From: Saccharothrix violaceirubra
GTDB lineage: Bacteria > Actinomycetota > Actinomycetes > Mycobacteriales > Pseudonocardiaceae
Length of the DNA stretch: 64,000 nucleotides
Assembly: GCF_014203755.1 (NCBI RefSeq)
Contig: NZ_JACHJS010000001.1
Span: forward strand, 5,270,001 to 5,334,000
Direction: 5' to 3'
The translations under genes and the position numbers were made by a program. This document shows, one piece after another, positions 51,518 through 61,996 of the stretch. The notes beneath the pieces were generated by a model. That model worked only from the letters and a program-made list of their open reading frames with translations, did no database searches and had not been told where the DNA came from. Each line of letters starts with the position of its first letter. Position 1 is the stretch's first letter.

Positions 51518-51955
51518 ATGGAACCAGTCGTCGGCGCGACCCCGAAGGTGGTGCGCTCCGAAGCGGAGTGGCGCGAGACCCTGACGCCGCAGGAGTACGC
51601 GGTGCTGCGGCAAGCCGGCACCGAACGTGCGTGGACCGGCGAGTACACCGACACCAAGACCGAAGGCGTCTACTCGTGCCGCGCGTGCGACGCCGAGTTG
51701 TTCCGCAGCGACACGAAGTTCGACTCCCACTGCGGGTGGCCGTCGTTCTTCTCGCCGCTGGCCGGGGACTCGGTGCTCCTGCGCGAGGACCGCGCGCTCG
51801 GCATGGTGCGCACGGAAGTGCTCTGCGCCACATGCCACAGCCACCTCGGGCACGTTTTCGAGGGTGAGGGCTATGCGACTCCGACGGACCAGCGCTACTG
51901 CATCAACTCCATCAGCTTGCGTCTGGTCGAAACCACCGCCGGTCCGACAGACTGA
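51518..51955 (+). CDS. msrB: Peptide-methionine (R)-S-oxide reductase
   Basis: This 145-aa protein has all MsrB landmarks: EWRETLTPQEYAVLRQAGTERAWTGEY, zinc-binding CRAC and CATC pairs, FDSHCGWPSFF, and the catalytic Cys in QRYCINSIS. It reduces methionine-R-sulfoxide in proteins. The enzyme lies just upstream of the MNIO-type cluster, which may be coincidental or a shared redox theme. Confidence 0.95.
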   Translation: MEPVVGATPKVVRSEAEWRETLTPQEYAVLRQAGTERAWTGEYTDTKTEGVYSCRACDAELFRSDTKFDSHCGWPSFFSPLAGDSVLLREDRALGMVRTEVLCATCHSHLGHVFEGEGYATPTDQRYCINSISLRLVETTAGPTD

Positions 51956-52183: not shown

Positions 52184-53119
52184 GTGGAGCGTCCGTGGGG
52201 AATTACGGAACAGGGGTTCTTCGAGCTTTACTGGATCGCGCTCGCCGTGACGATCGTGATCGCGATCCTGATCAGGGTGCGCCTGCGGGGGCAGTCGGAC
52301 GACGCCCCCGCCGGCGCACCCGACGTCCACGTGCTGGCCGTGCTGGTCGGTGGCGCACGACGCGTCGCCGAGACCGCGCTGGCCGAACTGATCGCCGCGG
52401 GAGATGTGCGGCTCACGCGTGACGGCACCGTGACCGCCACCCAGGGTGTCCCGTCCGCACGGGATCCGATCGCGCGCAGTGTGCTGCGCGACGTGGAACG
52501 GCCGCCGCTCGTCCTGGCCCGCAAGACGCTGTGGGGCCAGGTCCACACCGTCCGGCACGCGGAGGCCGTGCGCCTGGCCACCGGACGTGCCGTCGAGGCC
52601 GGTCTGCTGGCCGACCCGCGCCGGGCGTTGCGGTCGGCCGTCCTCTCACTGCTCCCGCTGGCCCTGCTGTTCGCGGTCGGCCTGGCCCGGTGGGCGTCGG
52701 AACTCACGGTCGGCGGGCCGGTCGGGTGGCTGTCGGTGCACCTCGTGCTGACCGGCGTCCTGCTGGCCGCGCTGCCGAAGGTGATCGCCGTGGGACTCAC
52801 CGCCCGGGGTTCCCGGGTGGTGGCGCGGACCCGCACGAGTGCGGGTGTCGGGGGCTGGAGGGCGACCGGCTCGGCGGGGGGAGTCGAACCGGTCGCCCTC
52901 CACGGCATCGAACGCCACCCGGACCCGGAGGTGCGGGACGCGTACGTGGCCGGTCGGCCCCTGCCGCGAACGAATGGTGGCGGCAGGTCCACCGCGGCGG
53001 CGTACGGCGCCGGCGCCGGCGCGGCGTGCGGGTCGGGCAGCGGGTGCAGTTCGTCGGGCTGCGGCGGTGGCAGTGGTTGCGGCGGTGGGGGCGGCTGCGG
53101 TGGGGGCGGGGGCAGCTGA
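52184..53119 (+). CDS. TIGR04222-like membrane protein with Cys/Gly-rich tail
   Basis: This 311-aa protein starts with WGITEQGFFELYWIALAVTIVIAIL, a membrane helix with the TIGR04222 look. A cytoplasmic domain follows (HVLAVLVGGARRVAETALAELIAAGDVRLTRDG, then HTVRHAEAVRLA), then two more hydrophobic segments (about residues 150-210). The C-terminal 35 residues are almost entirely Gly, Ser and Cys with five Cys (including SGCSSSGCGGGSGC). It is followed by a second paralogue and an MNIO enzyme. The tail may be the enzyme's substrate. Confidence 0.85.
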   Translation: MERPWGITEQGFFELYWIALAVTIVIAILIRVRLRGQSDDAPAGAPDVHVLAVLVGGARRVAETALAELIAAGDVRLTRDGTVTATQGVPSARDPIARSVLRDVERPPLVLARKTLWGQVHTVRHAEAVRLATGRAVEAGLLADPRRALRSAVLSLLPLALLFAVGLARWASELTVGGPVGWLSVHLVLTGVLLAALPKVIAVGLTARGSRVVARTRTSAGVGGWRATGSAGGVEPVALHGIERHPDPEVRDAYVAGRPLPRTNGGGRSTAAAYGAGAGAACGSGSGCSSSGCGGGSGCGGGGGCGGGGGS

Positions 53120-53291
53120 TCCCCCATCGTCGGACGAATCGGACACGGTCCGACCGCGCACCGCACACGGCCGGACCGCCTCCGTGACGGATCATCGTTT
53201 TCGCTGGTCACACCTTTACGCTGCGCGGGAACCAGGCGTGGCGCCGGTCCGTCACAGGCGGCGGTACCACCGGGGAGAGGCGGGATGGCCG

Positions 53292-54125
53292 ATGACGGTC
53301 ACGGCGGGTCCGGCACGACTGTGGCCGGAAGAGCAGGGGTTCCTGGCCGGCGGGCCGGGGCGGGCGGCCGAGGTCGCGGTCGTGTCGTTGCTCGACGCGG
53401 GCGCGCTGCGCCTGTCGCGCAGCGGCGTGGTGCGCCCGGTCAGCGGGCCGCCGCGCTCGTGGACTCCGATCCAGTCGGCCGCGCTGCGGTCGGCGTCGCG
53501 GCCGTTCGGCGAACTGGTCCAGGCCGTCGCGGCGAGCGCGGAAGCGCGGGGGTTGCGTCGCCACCTGCTGGACCGGGGACTGCTGGTGTCGCCGACGCGG
53601 CGGGCGCTCGCGAAGACCACGCGCGTGCTCGCGTTGCTGGTCGGCATCGCGGCCCTGCTCACGGTCCTGATCACGCACGTCCAGGTCCTGCTGTGCATCG
53701 GCGTGGTCGTGGCGATGCTGTTCGTGCGCTACTTCGCGGGGAAGCTGCGGGGACCGTTGACCGGCCGCGGGCGTGCCGAGGTGCGCGACCTGGCCCGGTA
53801 CGCGACGCCCGCGAGCCGGCTGCACCTGGTGGCGTACAAGGGTCTGCTCGGCCGGGTCGGGAGTCTGCGCGTGTGCGACCTGCTCGGGCTCGCCCCGGCG
53901 GCCTCGACGTTGCGGCGGCGCAGCAAGAAGCGGTCGACCACGACGTCGTCGTCGGACTCGTGCGGCGGCGGGGTCTACAGCTCGTGCGGGAGTTGCGCGG
54001 GCAGCGGGTGCGGGTCGTCGTCGGACAGTTCCTCGTCGGACAGTTCGTCCTCGTCCGACAGCGGCAGCAGTTGCAGCAGCGGGAGCAGCTGCGGTTCCTC
54101 GTGCGGAGGCGGTGGCGGTGACTGA
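53292..54125 (+). CDS. Second TIGR04222-like membrane protein with Cys/Ser-rich tail
   Basis: This 277-aa paralogue starts at ATG 53292. It retains the conserved cytoplasmic domain ([24 protein letters not shown]) and a pair of hydrophobic helices near residues 115-145 ([30 protein letters not shown]). The last 55 residues form a low-complexity Ser/Gly/Asp tail with seven Cys ([14 protein letters not shown] and [11 protein letters not shown]). The DUF692 gene starts inside its 3' end with an 8-bp overlap. Low-complexity tails can arise by simple-repeat expansion, but Cys retention in both paralogues argues for function. Confidence 0.85.
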
Positions 54126-54921
54126 ACGACTCGGGGTCGGCATCGGGTGGCGGCCGGAGATCGACCTGACCGTGGAACGGCTGCCCGGCGTGGACTTCGT
54201 CGAGGTGGTCGCGGAGAACCTGCACGTCGGGCACCTGCCCGAATCCGTGCTCCTGCTGCGTGAACGCGGCATTCCCGTACTGCCGCACGCCGTGTCGCTG
54301 TCGCTGGGCGGCGCCGACCCGGTCGACCCGAAGCGGGTCGCGCACCTGGCCGCGCTCGCCGAGGCCGTCGACGCGCCGTTCGTCAGCGACCACGTGTGCT
54401 TCGTGCGCGCGGGCGGGCTCGACTCCGGTCACCTGATGCCCGTGCCGCGCACCCGCGACGCGCTCGACGTGCTCGTGGCCAACGTCAGGTCGATCCAGCC
54501 GGACCTGCCCGTGCCGCTGGCGCTGGAGAACGTGGCCGCGTTGCTGGAGTGGCCCGACGGCGAGCTGTCCGAGGGCCGGTTCCTGGCCGAACTCGTCGAG
54601 CGCACCGACATCCACCTGCTGGTCGACGTGGCCAACCTGTACGCCAACGCCCGCAACCTGGGTACCGACGTGGACCGGTTCCTCGACGAGATCCCGTTGG
54701 AGCGCTTGGCTTACGTGCACGTCGCGGGCGGCGTCGAGCACAACGGCCTCTACCACGACACGCACGCCCACGCCGTGCTGCCCGAGGTGCTCGACGTGCT
54801 GGCCGCGTTGCGCGACCGCGTCGACCCGCCGGGCGTGCTGCTGGAACGCGACGACGACTACCCGTCCGACGCGGAACTGGCCGCCGAGCTGGCCGCGATC
54901 CGCGCGGTCGTCGAACGGTGA
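54118..54921 (+). CDS. DUF692 multinuclear non-heme iron oxidase (MNIO)
   Basis: This 267-aa protein has a TIM-barrel DUF692 signature with the metal ligands of MNIO enzymes: Glu33 (VVAENL), His57 ([11 protein letters not shown]), Asp91-His92 (SDHVCF), Glu137-Asn138 (ALENVAAL), Asp170 and Asn173 ([12 protein letters not shown]), His201 (YVHVAGG) and Asp214/His216 (YHDTHAHAV). Known members (MbnB, TglH and related) modify Cys, Asp or Asn in peptides, usually with a small partner protein. GTG 54118 overlaps the preceding gene, and the next gene overlaps it by 4 bp. The likely substrate is one of the Cys-rich tails upstream. Confidence 0.9.
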
Positions 54922-55265
54922 CCGCGCCCCAGCGCGCCGAACTGGCCCGACGCCAGGCCGAACTGCTGCGCGCCCTGCTCGCCGACGGCGACGTGCCGGC
55001 GGGGTTCGACCCGGACCGCGTCGCCGTCGAGGCGCGGGCGCTGTTGTCGAAGCGGCGCGGGATCGTGGCGATGTTGCGCCCGGATCTGGTCGACTCGTTG
55101 GGCGAACGCTTCCGTCCGCTCTTCGACACCTACGGCCGGGGCCGGCCACGAACGGATGGCAGCCGAATGCGTGAGGACGCGGCGGCCTTCGCCGAGTGGC
55201 TCGCCGACCGGGGCGAACTTCCGACGCGGACCAAACGGCGCTGGTGGCAGCGAGCGGATCAGTGA
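54918..55265 (+). CDS. Small partner protein of the MNIO enzyme
   Basis: This 115-aa protein starts at the GTG overlapping the DUF692 stop. It is helical at the N-terminus ([22 protein letters not shown]), contains [29 protein letters not shown], and ends with [22 protein letters not shown]. Its position matches the partner/recognition protein found beside MNIO enzymes, and the [14 protein letters not shown] segment is typical of such actinobacterial proteins as I recall. Peptide binding is inferred. Confidence 0.75.
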
Positions 55266-55512
55266 TCTTCGGCCGGCCGGTCGCCGGCCGGCCGCGCGAA
55301 CAGCGCAGCGTCGCCAGTCGGGTCACCGCGCGTGACCACCGACTGGGCCGACCAGGGGGCAGGGCCGCCTCGAAACGACGCTGACCCGCTTGCGCCCCGT
55401 GGCTAACTTCGGTGGCGTTGGGGGGAACTGGGACACCGCTGCCGCCGCGGTCGGACGGCGTCCTCCCGATTGCGCGTCTCGGACGCGTACCCACCGGATT
55501 CGGGAGGTGTCT

Positions 55513-58500
55513 GTGCTGGGTTCAAGATCGACCGGCCGGGGTGTCGCCTGGGGGGCGACCACCCTCGCCATCGGCCTCGTGGTCGGGGTCACCACGCCCG
55601 CGACCGCCGCGCCACCGGAGGTTCCCGCGACGGGAATCCCCTTGGCGGGCAAGCGGATCGCGACACCCGACGCCACGGTCACACTGCTCACCGGCGACCG
55701 GGTGTCCCTGGTCGGCGGCGCCGTGTCGGTACGACCGGCGGCAGGTCGGGAGAAGGCCGAGTTCCACCGCTTCGAACGCGACGGGCACCTGCACGTCGTG
55801 CCGCGCGACGCCTACGGCGCGTTGGCACGGGGCAAGCTCGACCCGCGACTGTTCGACGTCACCGGGTTGATCGACGCGCGATACGACGACGCGCACCGCG
55901 ACTCCGTGCCGTTGATCCTCCAGGCGGCGAGCACCGGCGCGGCGGGCGTGAGCGTCACGCACGCGCTGCCGGGTGCGTTGGCCGCCAAGGCTTCGAAGTC
56001 CGCGGCGGCCACCGCGTACGCCGCGCTGGTCGCCGATCCGGGCGTGGAGAAGGTGTGGCTGGACGGCCTGCGGCAGCCCACGCTGGACCAGAGCACCAGG
56101 CAGATCGGCGCGCCCGCCGCGTGGGAGCGGGGCCTGACCGGCAAGGGCGTCAAGGTCGGCGTCGTCGACACGGGCGTGGACGGCGCGCACCCCGACCTCT
56201 CCGGCCGCGAACTCGCCCAGGCCGACTTCACCGAGGACAACGACAACGTCGACCGCGTCGGCCACGGCACGCACGTCGCGGCCACGATCGCGAGCCACGA
56301 CCCGAAGTACCGGGGCGTGGCGCCCGACGCGCAGATCCTCGACGCCAAGGTGTGCGTGCTCAGCGGCTGCGCCGAGTCGTGGATCATCTCCGGGCTCACG
56401 TGGGTGGTCGAGCAGGGCGCGGACGTGGTCAACGTCAGCCTCGGCGGACCGGACGGCCCCGAGACCGACCCGATCGAGGCGCTCGTCGACTCGCTCTCGG
56501 CGCGGACCGGCACGCTGTTCGTCGTGGCGGCGGGCAACTCCGGCCGGCCGGGCACCATCGGCTCGCCGGGCAGCGCGGACTCCGCGCTCACCGTCGGCGC
56601 GGTCGAGCGCGACGACGACATCGCGGTGTTCTCCAGCCGAGGACCACGCTCTGACGGCGGGGTGAAGCCCGACGTGACCGCGCCGGGTGTGGGCATCGTC
56701 GCGGCCAAGTCGGCCGAGGGCCAGATCGGGGACCCGGTAGACGCCACGCACGTCGCCCTGAGCGGCACGTCCATGGCCACCCCGCACGTCGCCGGCGCCG
56801 CCGCGCTCCTGGCGCAGCAGCACCCCGACTGGACCGGCTCCCGCATCAAGGCCGCCCTCACCGCCACGGCCGCGTACAACCCGAAACTCGGCGCGTACGA
56901 CCAGGGTTCGGGCCGGATCGACCTGACCAAGGCCGTCGACTCGACGCTGACCAGTGAGCCGACCGGGCTCGCGTTCGGCGTCCAGGCATGGCCGCACCAG
57001 GACGACAAGCCGGTGACCAAGGAGGTGGAGTACCGCAACACGGGTACCACGCCGATCTCGCTGCGCCTGACGATCGACGCGGCCGGACCGGCGGACCTGT
57101 TCTCCGTGTCCCCCAAGGAACTCACCGTGCCCGCCGGCGGCACGGCGACGGCCACCGTCACCGCCGACACGCGCGGCACGGCCGACGGCGGGGCGTTCGG
57201 CGGCGCGGTCGTCGCGACCGGCGGGCCGACGCCGGTGCGCACGCCCGTGGGCGTCGACAGCGAGGTCGAGAGCTACGACGTCACGTTCGAGGTCGTCGAC
57301 CAGGACGGCAGCCCGGCGACGGGCCACGCGACCGACGTGTTCGGCCTGACCAACCAGACGGTGAAGTTCCTGCCGGGCGACAAGGGCACGTTCACCACCC
57401 GCGTACCCAAGGGCGACTACCTGGTCAACAGCTCGGTGACCGACCAGGGCCGGACCAAGGGCGCCTTCCTCGTGGCGCCGAAGGTCCAGGTCTCCGGCCC
57501 GACCACGGTGCGAATCGACGCGCGCAAGGCCAAGCCGGTCCGGATCACCCCGCCCGACCCCGCCGCCAAGCAGGGTCCGGGCGAGCTGACCTACCGGCGG
57601 ACCCACGGCCAGTACGGGCTGCTGATGGGCGTGCTGTTCATCGGCGGGTACGACGGCACGATCGCGATCGGCCACCTCGGCGAGGCGGTGCCGGCGGCCG
57701 AGTTCGAGACCGTGATCGGCACGACCGCCACCTCGGACCGGGCGACCTACCGGTTGTCGTACTCCGATGTCGGCCGACTGCCGGACGGGTTCGTGCGCAC
57801 ACCGTCGATCAGGGACCTCGCCGAGGTGCGGACGTCGCTGGACGCGGCGCCGGCGGGCAGGACGTTCCTGCTCGGTGCCAACCCGACGACGAAGAACGGC
57901 ACCGGCGGGTGGGGCTCGCTCGACCCGGTCCCCGCGTCCGGCAAGCCGCTCGACTACGTCACGCCCGAGCTGCGGTGGGGTTGGCGGCTGGAGCAGAATT
58001 CCGCGCCGGACCGGTCCGACGCGTCGTGGTCGTCGCCCGACCGCGACTACCGCAAGGGCCGCGTCTACCAGCAGCGATTCCTGCGCCCGCCGTTCGGTCC
58101 GGCGGTGCCGGCCAACCGGTACCTGCCGTCCATCGCCCGCTACCAGGACCTCCTCCTGGTCAGCCCGTCGTTGCTCGTCGACGGCGAAGGCAACCAGGGC
58201 CGGACCGCGGGCAAGGGCACGGTCGCGCTGTACCGCGACGGCAAGCTCCTGTCGAAGGTCGAGGCGCCGGGTGTCGGCCAGTTCCCGGTGCCGGCGGGTC
58301 CCGCCGAGTACCGGGTCGACATCGACCTGACGACGGCGGCGGACGTGCTCGCCTACGCGAGCCGGGTGACGGCGAGCTGGACCTTCCGCTCCGACACCGC
58401 GACCGGCACGACCCCCGTCGCCCTCCCGGCCGGTTTCGTGCGGTTCACGCCGAAGCTGGACGACTCGGGCACGCTGCGGGGCCGGTCCGCGCGGGTGCCG

Positions 58501-58731
58501 TTCGTGGTCGAGTTCGACAAGGACTCGGGCGCGGGCAAGGTGCGCAAGGTGGGCGTCGACGTGTCGTACGACGACGGCAAGACCTGGTCCCCGGCTCCGG
58601 TCACGGGTGACTCGGTGCTGCTCAAGCCCCCGGCGGGCAGCGGCTACGTGTCGTTGCGCGCCAAGGGGTCGGACTCGAAGGGCAACCGGTTCGAGCACGC
58701 GGTCGTCCGCACGTTCAAGTTCGCGAGGTGA
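55513..58731 (+). CDS. Large secreted S8 subtilisin-family peptidase (first of tandem pair)
   Basis: This 1072-aa protein starts at GTG 55513 after GGGAGG. It has a signal peptide (GRGVAWGATTLAIGLVVGV to TAA), a prodomain (TLLTGDRVSL, RFERDGHLHVVPRDA), then the catalytic domain with Asp (VVDTGVDGAHPD, about residue 219), His (GHGTHVAA, about 253) and Ser (GTSMATPHVAG, about 420). About 550 residues of beta-sandwich-like C-terminal domains follow (PVTKEVEYRNTGTTPISL onwards). It is probably an extracellular protease. A paralogue follows directly and a perfect hairpin terminator sits between them. Confidence 0.92.
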   Translation: MLGSRSTGRGVAWGATTLAIGLVVGVTTPATAAPPEVPATGIPLAGKRIATPDATVTLLTGDRVSLVGGAVSVRPAAGREKAEFHRFERDGHLHVVPRDAYGALARGKLDPRLFDVTGLIDARYDDAHRDSVPLILQAASTGAAGVSVTHALPGALAAKASKSAAATAYAALVADPGVEKVWLDGLRQPTLDQSTRQIGAPAAWERGLTGKGVKVGVVDTGVDGAHPDLSGRELAQADFTEDNDNVDRVGHGTHVAATIASHDPKYRGVAPDAQILDAKVCVLSGCAESWIISGLTWVVEQGADVVNVSLGGPDGPETDPIEALVDSLSARTGTLFVVAAGNSGRPGTIGSPGSADSALTVGAVERDDDIAVFSSRGPRSDGGVKPDVTAPGVGIVAAKSAEGQIGDPVDATHVALSGTSMATPHVAGAAALLAQQHPDWTGSRIKAALTATAAYNPKLGAYDQGSGRIDLTKAVDSTLTSEPTGLAFGVQAWPHQDDKPVTKEVEYRNTGTTPISLRLTIDAAGPADLFSVSPKELTVPAGGTATATVTADTRGTADGGAFGGAVVATGGPTPVRTPVGVDSEVESYDVTFEVVDQDGSPATGHATDVFGLTNQTVKFLPGDKGTFTTRVPKGDYLVNSSVTDQGRTKGAFLVAPKVQVSGPTTVRIDARKAKPVRITPPDPAAKQGPGELTYRRTHGQYGLLMGVLFIGGYDGTIAIGHLGEAVPAAEFETVIGTTATSDRATYRLSYSDVGRLPDGFVRTPSIRDLAEVRTSLDAAPAGRTFLLGANPTTKNGTGGWGSLDPVPASGKPLDYVTPELRWGWRLEQNSAPDRSDASWSSPDRDYRKGRVYQQRFLRPPFGPAVPANRYLPSIARYQDLLLVSPSLLVDGEGNQGRTAGKGTVALYRDGKLLSKVEAPGVGQFPVPAGPAEYRVDIDLTTAADVLAYASRVTASWTFRSDTATGTTPVALPAGFVRFTPKLDDSGTLRGRSARVPFVVEFDKDSGAGKVRKVGVDVSYDDGKTWSPAPVTGDSVLLKPPAGSGYVSLRAKGSDSKGNRFEHAVVRTFKFAR

Positions 58732-58736
58732 GCACG

Positions 58737-58771
58737 GCGACGGGTCGGTCCACAATGGACCGACCCGTCGC
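58737..58771 (+). terminator. Perfect 16-bp hairpin after the first subtilisin gene
   Basis: GCGACGGGTCGGTCCA (58737-58752) pairs perfectly with TGGACCGACCCGTCGC (58756-58771) around CAA. It lies 5 bp after the stop codon. Confidence 0.85.
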
Positions 58772-58879
58772 ACTCAGGTGACGCGGGTCACATTTCAGCA
58801 ACACCGACGCACGCTTCGGCACCTCCACTCCGGGAGCCCGCGAACAACGCGGGCGAGGGGAACCACAGGGAGGTGTCTC

Positions 58880-61800
58880 GTGCCGAGAACAGGTACCGCC
58901 GCACTGGCGGTCGCCGTCATCGCCGCCGGGACCGTCGCGGCAGGGGCGGGCACGGCCGCTGCCGCACCGGTGTCGTCGTCCGACACCGTCACGCTGATCA
59001 CCGGCGACAAGGTCACGTTCGCCGGCGACAAGGTCACCGGGGTCGAACCGGGACCGGGACGCGACAAGACCACGTTCCACCGCTTCGAACGCGACGGCCA
59101 CGCCCACGTCGTCCCGAGCGACGCGTTCGCACCGCTGGCACAGGGCAAACTCGACCCGCGGCTGTTCGACGTGACCGGGCTGATCGGCTTCGGCTACGAC
59201 GACAAGCACCGCGACTCAGTGCCGCTCGTCGTGCAGGGGAAGGAAACGCGCGCAGCGGGCATGCGGACCACCGCGACGTTGCCGGGCGCGTTCGCCGCGA
59301 CCGTCGCGAAGTCCGACGCGTCCGCGAACTGGTCCGGGATGCTCGGCGACCCGAACGTGCGCCGGGTCTGGCTCGACGGCCTGCGCACACCGACCCTGGA
59401 CCGAAGTACCAGGCAGATCGGCGCACCCACCGCGTGGGAGAAGGGCTTCACCGGCAAGGGCGTCAAGGTCGCCGTGCTGGACTCCGGCGTCGACGGCGCC
59501 CACCCCGACCTCGCCGGTCGGGAGATCGCCGAACACAACTTCACCACCGACCCGGACACCGTCGACCGCAACGGCCACGGCACCCACGTGGCGGCCACGA
59601 TCGCGAGCCACGACCCGAAGTACCGGGGCGTGGCACCGGACGCGTCGATCCTCGACGGCAAGGTGTGCGCCGGGAAAGGCTGCCCCGAGTCCGCGATCCT
59701 GGCCGGCATCGAGTGGGCCGTGGACCAGGGCACCGACATCGTGAACCTGAGCCTCGGCGGGCTCGACTTCCCGGGCGTCGACCCGCTGGAAGAGGCGATC
59801 AACACCTACTCAGAGCGCTCCGGCACGCTGTTCGTGGTGTCGGCGGGCAACGACGGCCTGCCCGGCACGGTGAACTCGCCGGGCAGCGCCGACGCCGCGC
59901 TCACCGTCGGTGCGGTGGACCAGAACGACGCCGTGGCCGGATTTTCCAGCCGTGGCCCCAGGCTCGGCGACCACGCGGTCAAGCCCGACGTGACCGCGCC
60001 CGGTGTGCGCATCGTCGCGGCCAAGGCCGCCGAAGGCCGGAACGGCGAACCGGTCGACGACACCCACGTCGCCATGCAAGGCACGTCCATGGCCACCCCG
60101 CACGTCGCGGGCGCGGCGGCCCTGCTGGCCCAGCAGCACCCCGACTGGACCGGTGCCCGAATCAAGGCCGCCCTCACCGGCAGCGCCGTACCCAAGTCGG
60201 GTACGGGCGAGTTCGACCAGGGCTCCGGCCGGATCGATGTCGCCGCGGCCACCGTCGTGACCGTTGTCGCCGAGCCGACCACCCTCACGTTCGGCGAACA
60301 GCGATGGCCCCGCCAGGACGACGAGCCGCTCACCCGTGATCTCGTCTACCGCAACACCGGCGACCAGCCGGCGGTGCTGGGCCTGACGCTGGAGACCGGC
60401 GCTCCCTCCGGCCTGTTCTCGTTGTCCGCCAACGAGATCACCGTGCCCGCGCATGGCACCGCTTCCGTACGGGTCACCGCCGACACCCGAACCCACCCGG
60501 ATGGTCGACACTCGGGCACCGTCGTCACGACCGGCGCGATCAAGGTCCGCGTGCCGCTGAGCGTGCACAGCGAGCCCGAGAGCTACGACGTCCACCTCGA
60601 GTTCATCGGGCACGACGGCAGGCCGGCAACCACTCACAACACGGCGTGGCACGGTAGCGCTCCCGGGGAACAGTTCCGGTTCCTCGACCCCTCGGTACCG
60701 AGCACGACCCTGCGACTGGCCAAGGGCGACTACGTCCTCACCAGCGTCGTAGGTGAATCGACTCGACAGGCCCTGCTCTCGGCTCCGAAGTTGTCGGTGA
60801 CGGCGGACATGGTGGTGAAAGTCGACGCTCGCACCGCCAAGCCGCTCACCGTCACCGCACCCGACGCCACGGCGGTCCACCAGAGCGCCATCGTGGGTGT
60901 CGCTTGGAAGGGGGAGTCCGTCTTCACCAACTTCCCGAACGGATTCGGCGATCTGACGTCCATCGGAGTCATCGGACCACAGCCCCGACTCGACGGGCTG
61001 TACACATTCGCGGCCACCAAGGCGGTGACGGCCACCGCGACCTACATGCTCGGCTACATCGACCGAGGCCGGGTCTCGACCGGATTCATCCGCAAGCCGG
61101 CCAAGAAGGACCTCGCCGAGATCCGGATCGACCCGCAGGGTACCCCTGGGCTGAGCCATTCCCTGGCCGAAAGCATGCGGTTGTCCGACGACCAGTCGAT
61201 CAATTGGTTCTCCCGTCCCGCGACGCCGAGCAACCTCGTCGAGTACGTCACCACCGACGTCTCCTGGAACTGGGGTTTCTCGCAGCACCGCGGCGATTCG
61301 CTCGCGGCGGATTGGTCCTCTCCGATGCGCGCGTACCGCCAAGGACAAGTCCACGACCTGCGGTTCCAGGTACCCGCGTTCAACCCGGTCACCCGTTTGG
61401 ACGAGCAGGGCTCCACGGTCTACGGGACCAGCGGCGCCCTACTCATGATCTTGAAGACATACGTGGACGGCGGGGGGAACCGCGGTGTCATCGGTGCGCC
61501 CAAGGTCACCCTGTACCGCAACGGCACGCTTGTCGAAGAACAGAACAGCGACTGGGTCGCCTTCACCAAGCTGCCCGAGGGAATGGCCGACTACCGGGTC
61601 GAGACCGAGAGCACGCACTCACCCGAGATGAGCGAGTACGGCACGCTCGTGCGCACCGCCTGGAACTTCCGCTTCGCGCCTTCCGCCACGAGCGACCGGA
61701 CCCGGGTCCCCGTACCGGTCACCGCCGTCCAGTTCACGCCGACGAACGGGATCGTCGCCGCCGGGAAGTCGGTACGGGTGCCGTTCGGCTTCACCGGGCC

Positions 61801-61996
61801 GCGTCAGCGGATCGAGGTGGCGGAAGTGTCCTACGACGACGGTGCCACGTGGACGAAGGTGCCGGTCGCCGGGGATTCCGTCCTCCTGCGCACGCCCAAG
61901 CGCGACGGCTACGTCTCGTTGCGTGCCAAGGGTTCCGACGGCAAGGGCAACGGGTTCGAGCAGACGACGATCCGCTCTTTCAAGTTCGCCAAGTAG
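58880..61996 (+). CDS. Large secreted S8 subtilisin-family peptidase (second of tandem pair)
   Basis: This 1038-aa paralogue of the preceding gene starts at GTG 58880 after AGGGAGG. Order: signal peptide (LAVAVIAAGTVAAGAGTAAAA), prodomain (TLITGDKVTFAGDK, RFERDGHAHVVPSDA), catalytic Asp (VLDSGVDGAHPD, about residue 201), His (GHGTHVAA, about 234), Ser (GTSMATPHVAG, about 402), then long beta-rich C-terminal domains. The second half is less GC-rich and more diverged from its neighbour than the catalytic half. It probably arose by tandem duplication. Confidence 0.92.
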   Translation: MPRTGTAALAVAVIAAGTVAAGAGTAAAAPVSSSDTVTLITGDKVTFAGDKVTGVEPGPGRDKTTFHRFERDGHAHVVPSDAFAPLAQGKLDPRLFDVTGLIGFGYDDKHRDSVPLVVQGKETRAAGMRTTATLPGAFAATVAKSDASANWSGMLGDPNVRRVWLDGLRTPTLDRSTRQIGAPTAWEKGFTGKGVKVAVLDSGVDGAHPDLAGREIAEHNFTTDPDTVDRNGHGTHVAATIASHDPKYRGVAPDASILDGKVCAGKGCPESAILAGIEWAVDQGTDIVNLSLGGLDFPGVDPLEEAINTYSERSGTLFVVSAGNDGLPGTVNSPGSADAALTVGAVDQNDAVAGFSSRGPRLGDHAVKPDVTAPGVRIVAAKAAEGRNGEPVDDTHVAMQGTSMATPHVAGAAALLAQQHPDWTGARIKAALTGSAVPKSGTGEFDQGSGRIDVAAATVVTVVAEPTTLTFGEQRWPRQDDEPLTRDLVYRNTGDQPAVLGLTLETGAPSGLFSLSANEITVPAHGTASVRVTADTRTHPDGRHSGTVVTTGAIKVRVPLSVHSEPESYDVHLEFIGHDGRPATTHNTAWHGSAPGEQFRFLDPSVPSTTLRLAKGDYVLTSVVGESTRQALLSAPKLSVTADMVVKVDARTAKPLTVTAPDATAVHQSAIVGVAWKGESVFTNFPNGFGDLTSIGVIGPQPRLDGLYTFAATKAVTATATYMLGYIDRGRVSTGFIRKPAKKDLAEIRIDPQGTPGLSHSLAESMRLSDDQSINWFSRPATPSNLVEYVTTDVSWNWGFSQHRGDSLAADWSSPMRAYRQGQVHDLRFQVPAFNPVTRLDEQGSTVYGTSGALLMILKTYVDGGGNRGVIGAPKVTLYRNGTLVEEQNSDWVAFTKLPEGMADYRVETESTHSPEMSEYGTLVRTAWNFRFAPSATSDRTRVPVPVTAVQFTPTNGIVAAGKSVRVPFGFTGPRQRIEVAEVSYDDGATWTKVPVAGDSVLLRTPKRDGYVSLRAKGSDGKGNGFEQTTIRSFKFAK

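Follow-up and report, generated by a model that had tools for sequence, protein, structure and literature searches.

MNIO enzymes are known as peptide modifiers. The closest described counterparts of the locus studied here are the TIGR04222-MNIO loci, whose Cys tails were proposed as MNIO substrates by Antoine et al. in 2025 (PMC12452194); the same paper shows a 115-residue partner protein (PME-type 2) for Saccharothrix sp. NRRL B-16314 and assigns the TIGR04222 tail to the periplasm. The analysed stretch of 64,000 nucleotides from Saccharothrix violaceirubra (hereafter the window) contains an operon of this TIGR04222-type, sharing with the published loci the gene set, the Cys-rich C-terminal tails, and the 115-residue partner, a homologue of which is also encoded in the NRRL B-16314 locus (L066). 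The operon type is thus not new, as gene set, tails, and hypothesis were all published in 2025 (PMC12452194). Added here are the ubiquity of the partner and its open-frame fusions, the specificity of the tail Cys, a charge bias pointing to the cytoplasm, and loci with Cys-free TIGR04222 proteins.

As the original prediction had described, the ORF coordinates and translations place four genes on one strand, encoding two TIGR04222 proteins, a DUF692/MNIO enzyme, and a partner of 115 aa. Membrane protein 1 (52184..53119, + strand, GTG start, 311 aa) comprises an N-terminal TM helix, a domain, a TM hairpin, and a tail, with hydrophobic segments at residues 12-30, 149-167, and 187-205. Its Gly/Ser/Cys tail (53021..53116, +; strict motif from 53027) contains five Cys. 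Membrane protein 2 (53292..54125, +, 277 aa) has the TM hairpin and tail without the N-terminal TM helix (hydrophobic segments 112-130 and 133-151, none N-terminal to residue 112), and its Ser/Gly/Cys tail (53949..54122, +; strict motif from 54072) contains seven Cys. Both Cys counts, read off the translations, agree with those predicted, and both proteins score above the cut-off of NCBIfam TIGR04222 (100.7 and 79.7 bits, cut-off 43; protein 2 covers profile positions 30-225 of 229). The MNIO gene (54118..54921, +, GTG start, 267 aa) starts inside gene 2 with an overlap of 8 bp and is itself overlapped by 4 bp by the partner gene (54918..55265, +, GTG start), again as foreseen.

The MNIO matches PF05114 with 277 bits (cut-off 25; profile positions 1-262 of 263) and is the sole match to this family found in its genome. 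When the window enzyme is aligned with 80 named relatives (81 rows), no row departs from H57, H92, E137, D170, H201, D214, H216, or E243-R244-D245, and only two rows lack D91 (79 of 81). The conserved stretches align with the solved DUF692 chains 3bww and 8hci, and the conserved residues presumably comprise the metal-site His/Asp/Glu and the catalytic Asp. By sequence comparison the enzyme matches solved MbnB and, more strongly, 8hci/8hi7, which we take to be TglH. The best NCBIfam match is BufB at 194.9 bits, below its cut-off of 310; the HvfB score, 161.4 bits, is also below its cut-off (360). Other loci of the family, L003 and L005, do encode MNIOs scoring as true BufB. The Asp of the LLERD motif, found in all 81 rows, may be mapped, in an assignment made here, to FonB-Asp249, the catalytic base of that enzyme (PMC13097082).

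MNIO and TIGR04222 genes are linked across genomes. The enzyme was found in 79 of 150 family genomes, at least 76 of which also encode TIGR04222 among the 150 best matches listed. All 125 neighbouring pairs among the matches listed lie on the same strand with TIGR04222 upstream; one MNIO, split over three rows, enters these figures three times. A further 245 genomes of the class, screened at E 1e-12 or better, include 57 with TIGR04222, 50 with MNIO, and 43 with both, compared with ~12 expected under independence, and no opposite-strand pairs were found in them. As the loci share descent, and L080 and L081 are one strain, the counts given here do not represent independent events.

The partner is encoded directly 3' of the MNIO in all 80 named loci and was detected in all testable loci outside the family (n = 36), 23 of which encode MNIO and partner in a single open frame. 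Antoine et al. (PMC12452194), in contrast, describe many loci as apparently lacking a partner gene. The window partner resembles a divergent DUF2063 domain. A Pfam search with it gave no match; DUF2063 was detected below threshold in 15 of 47 partner members (best E 0.0014), the window protein not among them. A first hhalign comparison with two DUF2063 proteins, using narrow profiles, was negative (Prob 0.6). With both profiles broadened, the partner aligned to a set of five proteins, two of which Pfam identifies as DUF2063, with Prob 74.7 and E 2.6e-5, while 16 control comparisons reached at most 2.5 and 50 shuffles at most 2.6. The controls were the first and last 140 residues of eight neighbouring ORFs in the window (identical for the shortest); at least one of these, ORF 62012, lacks a Pfam match and may not be a real gene. 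When a profile built from the partner alignment was compared with solved structures, the single match was to a ribosomal protein (E 0.51).

Three or more Cys spaced by Gly/Ser alone occur at only three places in the window (six frames, ORF segments of at least 60 aa), two of which are the tails described above, and because the motif is so rare, these tails are not explained by chance. Across the named loci, 96 of 189 TIGR04222 ORFs vs. 1 of 13,737 other ORF segments carry a Gly/Ser run with at least four Cys, and 130 of 189 vs. 15 of 13,737 carry one with at least three. In the window's family, TIGR04222 is present in 78 named loci, and 68 of these have a strict Cys tail. The Cys of strict tails are preceded by Ser/Gly in 723 and followed by Gly/Ser in 716 of 742 cases, most frequently with a spacing of five residues, and FonB is described as preferring Cys-Gly (PMC13097082). 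Cys number and spacing differ between TIGR04222 paralogues, and in 16 of 38 named loci with at least three copies a middle copy lacks tail Cys.

On sequence evidence, two Cys-tailed membrane proteins, an MNIO, and a DUF2063-like partner are thus co-encoded and conserved. We consider it probable that MNIO and partner oxidise tail Cys to generate a membrane-anchored copper or metal ligand. The MNIO-partner complex would act in the cytoplasm on Cys of the Ser/Gly-Cys-Gly/Ser repeats and convert a number of these residues to oxidised heterocycles, with 5-thiooxazoles the likeliest form by analogy to bufferins and captophorins. The product would be a flexible, multi-site copper(I) or metal ligand, kept at the membrane by the N-terminal domain and TM hairpin, with a presumed role in buffering copper or thiophilic metals or in their hand-over at the membrane. 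Even if unmodified, the Cys tails could bind metals. The parts of the cited papers covered here report no modification, metal binding, or phenotype for TIGR04222. The original proposal that a membrane-anchored tail is the target of MNIO and partner fits the genetics and has already been published (PMC12452194); its placing of the tails at the surface fared less well.

The side of the membrane on which the tails lie was assessed from the distribution of Lys and Arg. In the named set, both flanks of the hairpin hold more Lys+Arg on average (tail side 3.14, preceding side 3.41) than its loop (0.95). Flanks exceed the loop in 175 of 188 rows and in 92 of 96 rows of a second set, and the N-terminal TM helix is followed by more Lys/Arg than precede it in 92 of 97 cases. 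By this positive-inside bias, the tails of the window proteins and most relatives look cytoplasmic, the expected compartment of the enzyme, and the predicted surface position is unsupported for the two window proteins, in which the hairpin alone separates domain and tail. That the tails are instead modified in the cytoplasm and then transported across the membrane to serve as extracellular metal-binding tails appears rather doubtful against this bias, even though it agrees with the published periplasmic topology and the export of bufferins (PMC12452194). It also draws on a further hydrophobic stretch, potentially an extra TM helix, past the hairpin in 33 of 189 named-set relatives, and on a cruder count over 127 proteins that end in a hairpin and tail, where Lys/Arg after this terminal hairpin exceeded those in the loop in 98 and fell below them in 29; this count has been superseded by the alignment-based regions, whose TM boundaries are approximate. 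In-place modification, with Cys in cytosol-facing tails converted to thiooxazoles to give a membrane-tethered copper buffer or relay at the inner face, is a tentative reading; if true, the substrates would form a class of proteins instead of peptides, with a topology opposite to that published.

The simple tail-substrate model has to accommodate 11 of 37 TIGR04222-linked MNIO loci outside the family that have only Cys-free TIGR04222 tails and yet retain the MNIO-partner frame, indicating another use of the enzyme there or loss of the tail, and these loci count against it, as do the middle TIGR04222 copies that lack tail Cys. Loss of tail Cys beside a retained DUF692 gene, originally named as a refutation, is concentrated in one genus (g68, 10 of 16 loci) and does not describe the window's family, with its prevalent strict tails. 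Other Cys-tailed candidates in the Cys-free loci were limited to relaxed-motif matches that, judged by eye, are unlike Gly/Ser tails, and wider stretches around these loci revealed no convincing alternative Cys tail. Conserved genes in these wider stretches encode a PTH2-type protein with one Cys (consistent with adjamnio-II as published), a six-Cys protein of 63 aa ~2.7 kb upstream, and DUF4142 and other proteins. The Cys-free loci are compatible with an MNIO target elsewhere, in a different protein or at a residue other than Cys within the TIGR04222 domain, in which case the Cys tails would serve unmodified as ligands for metals or in redox reactions. Asp, Asn, and Phe have been noted as sites of MNIO-type chemistry (PMC12452194). 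We regard such a target as unlikely, given the regular Cys context and the distribution of strict tails, which occur in 44 of 80 fetched TIGR04222 matches from genomes with MNIO but in only 2 of 17 where the genome has no listed MNIO. One of these two is L184, where an MNIO fragment adjoins TIGR04222 at a contig end. Still less credible is a RiPP core that, once modified, is cut from the membrane domain as its leader and set free as a soluble metallophore. The C-terminal, flexible, and modular tails with their variable Cys patterns would suit such a core, as would two subtilases (Peptidase_S8) downstream in the window. One genome paper from 2016 also places a TIGR04222 peptide in a cluster predicted to make a bacteriocin (PMC5183585). 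However, homologues of the downstream subtilase occur in 45 of 80 named loci but only in L180 among L142-L256 (reach ~2.5-6 kb), a distribution that fits family synteny. An MsrB (SelR) gene, which precedes the operon in the same orientation in 68 of 80 named loci, was also treated as family synteny and not as a functional part, since only four matches were found among L142-L256, all from the window's family (other-family loci reach ~2.5-6 kb).

If a membrane-protein tail is the substrate of MNIO and partner, MNIO chemistry reaches standing cell proteins, suggesting that actinomycetes commonly possess a so far uncharted device for handling metals. Membrane sidedness would then discriminate surface metal capture from inner-face buffering, and the natural MNIO-partner fusions offer a single-polypeptide enzyme for reconstitution. 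Methanobactin biosynthesis (MbnBC) and TglHI, like the window set, combine an MNIO with a partner and have peptide Cys targets; they differ, in part following PMC12452194, in their other partner proteins (MbnC for MbnB) and free peptide substrates. Bufferins and captophorins (BufABC; FonABC, PMC13097082) share with the window a PF05114 MNIO and a DUF2063-type partner, and their Cys targets, often Cys-Gly (PMC13097082), parallel the candidate Cys of the window tails. In contrast, their precursors are Sec-exported peptides (PMC12452194), whereas the candidates here are polytopic membrane proteins of 311 and 277 aa, and their partner is a DUF2063-RRE protein (PMC12452194), whereas the 115-aa window partner is too short for DUF2063 plus RRE.

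The interval 52184-55265 holds four co-directional genes, and the predicted architecture was borne out: two Cys-tailed TIGR04222 proteins, an MNIO enzyme, and a small overlapping gene. Genes 1 and 2 (+ strand) encode TIGR04222 membrane proteins (NCBIfam, 100.7 and 79.7 bits; cut-off 43) whose C-terminal Gly/Ser tails, read from the translations, carry 5 and 7 Cys, respectively. The MNIO gene (PF05114, 277 bits) starts 8 bp within gene 2 and shares a 4-bp overlap with the fourth gene, encoding a 115-aa protein without a match at E 0.1 in a Pfam/NCBIfam search. This MNIO is the single PF05114 match in the whole genome (7.35 Mb, one contig), and its closest named relatives come from Saccharothrix, Umezawaea, and Lentzea. 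An MsrB-type (SelR) gene lies upstream of the operon (51518-51955); it is a same-strand neighbour in 68 of the 80 loci of MNIO relatives from the window's family (hereafter named loci) and was not seen in the loci fetched outside this family. Downstream, two adjacent genes (55390-61996) encode a subtilase pair (Peptidase_S8), with homologues in 45/80 named loci.

Across 150 genomes of the window's family, MNIO occurs in 79 and TIGR04222 in 88 (E 0.001); the 150 best TIGR04222 matches, those listed, represent 78 genomes, 76 of which also encode MNIO. Among the matches listed, TIGR04222 lies within 6 kb of 78 of the 93 MNIO rows (one MNIO, split into three rows, is counted thrice), and 125/125 neighbouring pairs in the family are on the same strand with TIGR04222 upstream. 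A survey of DUF692 beside TIGR04222, as originally proposed, found co-occurrence beyond the family as well: at E 1e-12, 245 further genomes of the class contain TIGR04222 in 57 and MNIO in 50 cases, and both in 43, compared to ~12 expected if independent. Within 6 kb, 41/70 TIGR04222 and 37/54 MNIO matches of this set are linked; all pairs share a strand, 23 of them being upstream and 18 downstream.

In the named loci, Gly/Ser runs with at least four Cys are found in 96/189 TIGR04222 ORFs vs. 1/13,737 other ORF segments, the latter at a contig edge (L127); at a minimum of three Cys, the numbers are 130 and 15. TIGR04222 was found in 78/80 named loci, the exceptions (L067 and L127) having the MNIO near a contig end. 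At least one strict tail (at least three Cys separated by Gly/Ser only) occurs in 68 of these 78, and nine of the remaining ten have at least two Cys in a Gly/Ser tail, as judged by eye from the printed sequences. The residue before Cys in strict tails is Ser/Gly in 723/742 and the residue after it Gly/Ser in 716/742 cases, with five residues as the most frequent Cys spacing. Cys number and spacing differ between paralogues. The middle TIGR04222 copy has a Cys-free tail in 16/38 named loci with at least three copies (e.g. L062-L073, L080, L081, and L094); the window has two copies only. Among 97 fetched TIGR04222 matches (27 unlinked family and 70 class matches, linked family matches being left out), strict tails occur in 44/80 from genomes with a listed MNIO vs. 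2/17 from genomes without one. In one exception (G228), an MNIO fragment adjoins the TIGR04222 gene (L184), and the other (G096) is an assembly of ~480 contigs. Counts across related genomes do not represent independent events.

Antoine et al. 2025 (PMC12452194) describe the tails as periplasmic. In the alignment of named-set relatives, the loop of the transmembrane hairpin contains 0.95 Lys+Arg on average, compared to 3.41 in the segment preceding the hairpin and 3.14 in the one following it, and the flanks exceed the loop in 175/188 rows (8 ties, 5 opposite; 3/191 rows dropped for short flanks). The same holds for 92/96 proteins from the fetched loci L142-L256 (1 tie, 3 opposite; 3/99 dropped). 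A cruder first count was less clear (after-hairpin above loop in 98/127, below in 29). Where an N-terminal transmembrane helix is present, Lys/Arg is higher after than before it in 92/97 and lower in 3. Since both TIGR04222 proteins of the window share the flank-over-loop pattern, their domain and tail are predicted, by a charge rule, to be cytoplasmic, where the MNIO would be, and the surface location originally proposed for the tails is not supported. An extra hydrophobic stretch after the hairpin, found in 33/189 relatives, could turn the tail outward in those proteins.

In 80/80 named loci, the MNIO is followed by a homologue of the 115-aa protein, and the start of the match ranges from 19 nt upstream to 137 nt downstream of the MNIO stop codon. 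In the 37 linked loci outside the family (counted from the table, omitting repeat windows L235-L238), the partner is a separate gene in 13, lies in the stop-free frame of the MNIO in 23 (16 in genus g68 and 7 in family f19), and is cut by the fetched edge in one. For example, L213:91-1461 combines MNIO and a DUF2063-like partner domain in one open frame, as do 22 other loci. That the partner domain is encoded on its own in some genomes but joined to the MNIO in others is good evidence that the two form a working pair.

By profile similarity, the partner domain resembles a divergent DUF2063. Pfam yields a DUF2063 match in 15/47 partner members, in each case below threshold (best E 0.0014), and a first, narrower profile comparison with DUF2063 was negative. 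A comparison with the profile of five MNIO-adjoining proteins (L002-L006) gave Prob 74.7 and E 2.6e-5; Prob did not exceed 2.5 in 16 control comparisons or 2.6 in 50 column shuffles. The two of the five that were searched against Pfam match DUF2063 (71.5 and 61.9 bits; cut-off 27.2), and the others match these two by phmmer. L002-L006 are without TIGR04222 within 6 kb among the matches listed, and the MNIOs of L003 and L005 score above the BufB cut-off, constituting a second MNIO type in the family.

According to PMC13097082, MNIOs with DUF2063-type partners install 5-thiooxazole on Cys, with products tied to copper; FonB prefers Cys-Gly, with exceptions, and requires Asp249 as base. The Asp of the LLERD motif, invariant in 81/81 aligned MNIO rows, is taken to correspond to Asp249, and the dominant Ser/Gly-Cys-Gly/Ser tail context is consistent with the FonB preference. 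As family chemistry and context agree, we adopt tail-Cys oxidation as our reading: MNIO and partner would oxidize tail Cys, and the oxidized tail may act as a membrane-tethered metal ligand. The TIGR04222 tail is thus a reasonably probable MNIO substrate; thiooxazole and copper in particular are less probable.

Loci with only Cys-free TIGR04222 tails, 11 of the 37 TIGR04222-linked MNIO loci outside the family (counted from tables; 10 of the 16 in g68, one in f19), count against a simple tail-substrate model; all 11 retain the MNIO-partner open frame. The expectation that Cys tails accompany DUF692 therefore fails in these loci, although it holds for the 68/78 named loci with strict tails. A search for another convincing Cys tail near the Cys-free loci found none; the enzyme in these loci either acts on something else or has been retained after loss of the tail. 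In L239 and related loci of g68, which we infer to be Streptomyces, the MNIO-partner fusion stands beside a Cys-free TIGR04222, a DUF4142 gene, and a PTH2-type gene, and a 63-aa six-Cys protein is encoded ~2.7 kb upstream. The PTH2-type gene precedes the MNIO in L239, a gene order agreeing with the published adjamnio-II - MNIO - TIGR04222 type.

Our literature search for TIGR04222 found two works. PMC5183585 (2016), in a single mention, places a TIGR04222 peptide within a predicted bacteriocin cluster of Pseudonocardia. Antoine et al. 2025 report >3,500 TIGR04222 proteins, chiefly in Actinomycetota and often beside MNIO genes, propose the Cys-rich tails of a subset as MNIO substrates, and leave the chemistry and role of these loci open. 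The architecture and central idea of the original prediction are therefore in print, and the locus, real, conserved, and interesting, yet belongs to an already published kind. Topology, partner ubiquity, and enzyme-partner fusion are additions, the fusion not being found in the accessible text of PMC12452194. That study also names a class of divergent DUF2063-like partners, PME-type 2, and illustrates it with a protein of 115 residues from Saccharothrix sp. NRRL B-16314; this strain is represented here by locus L066, in which a 115-residue homologue lies directly 3' of the MNIO. Whereas the partner gene is described there as apparently missing from many TIGR04222-MNIO loci, it is present in all 80 named loci here.
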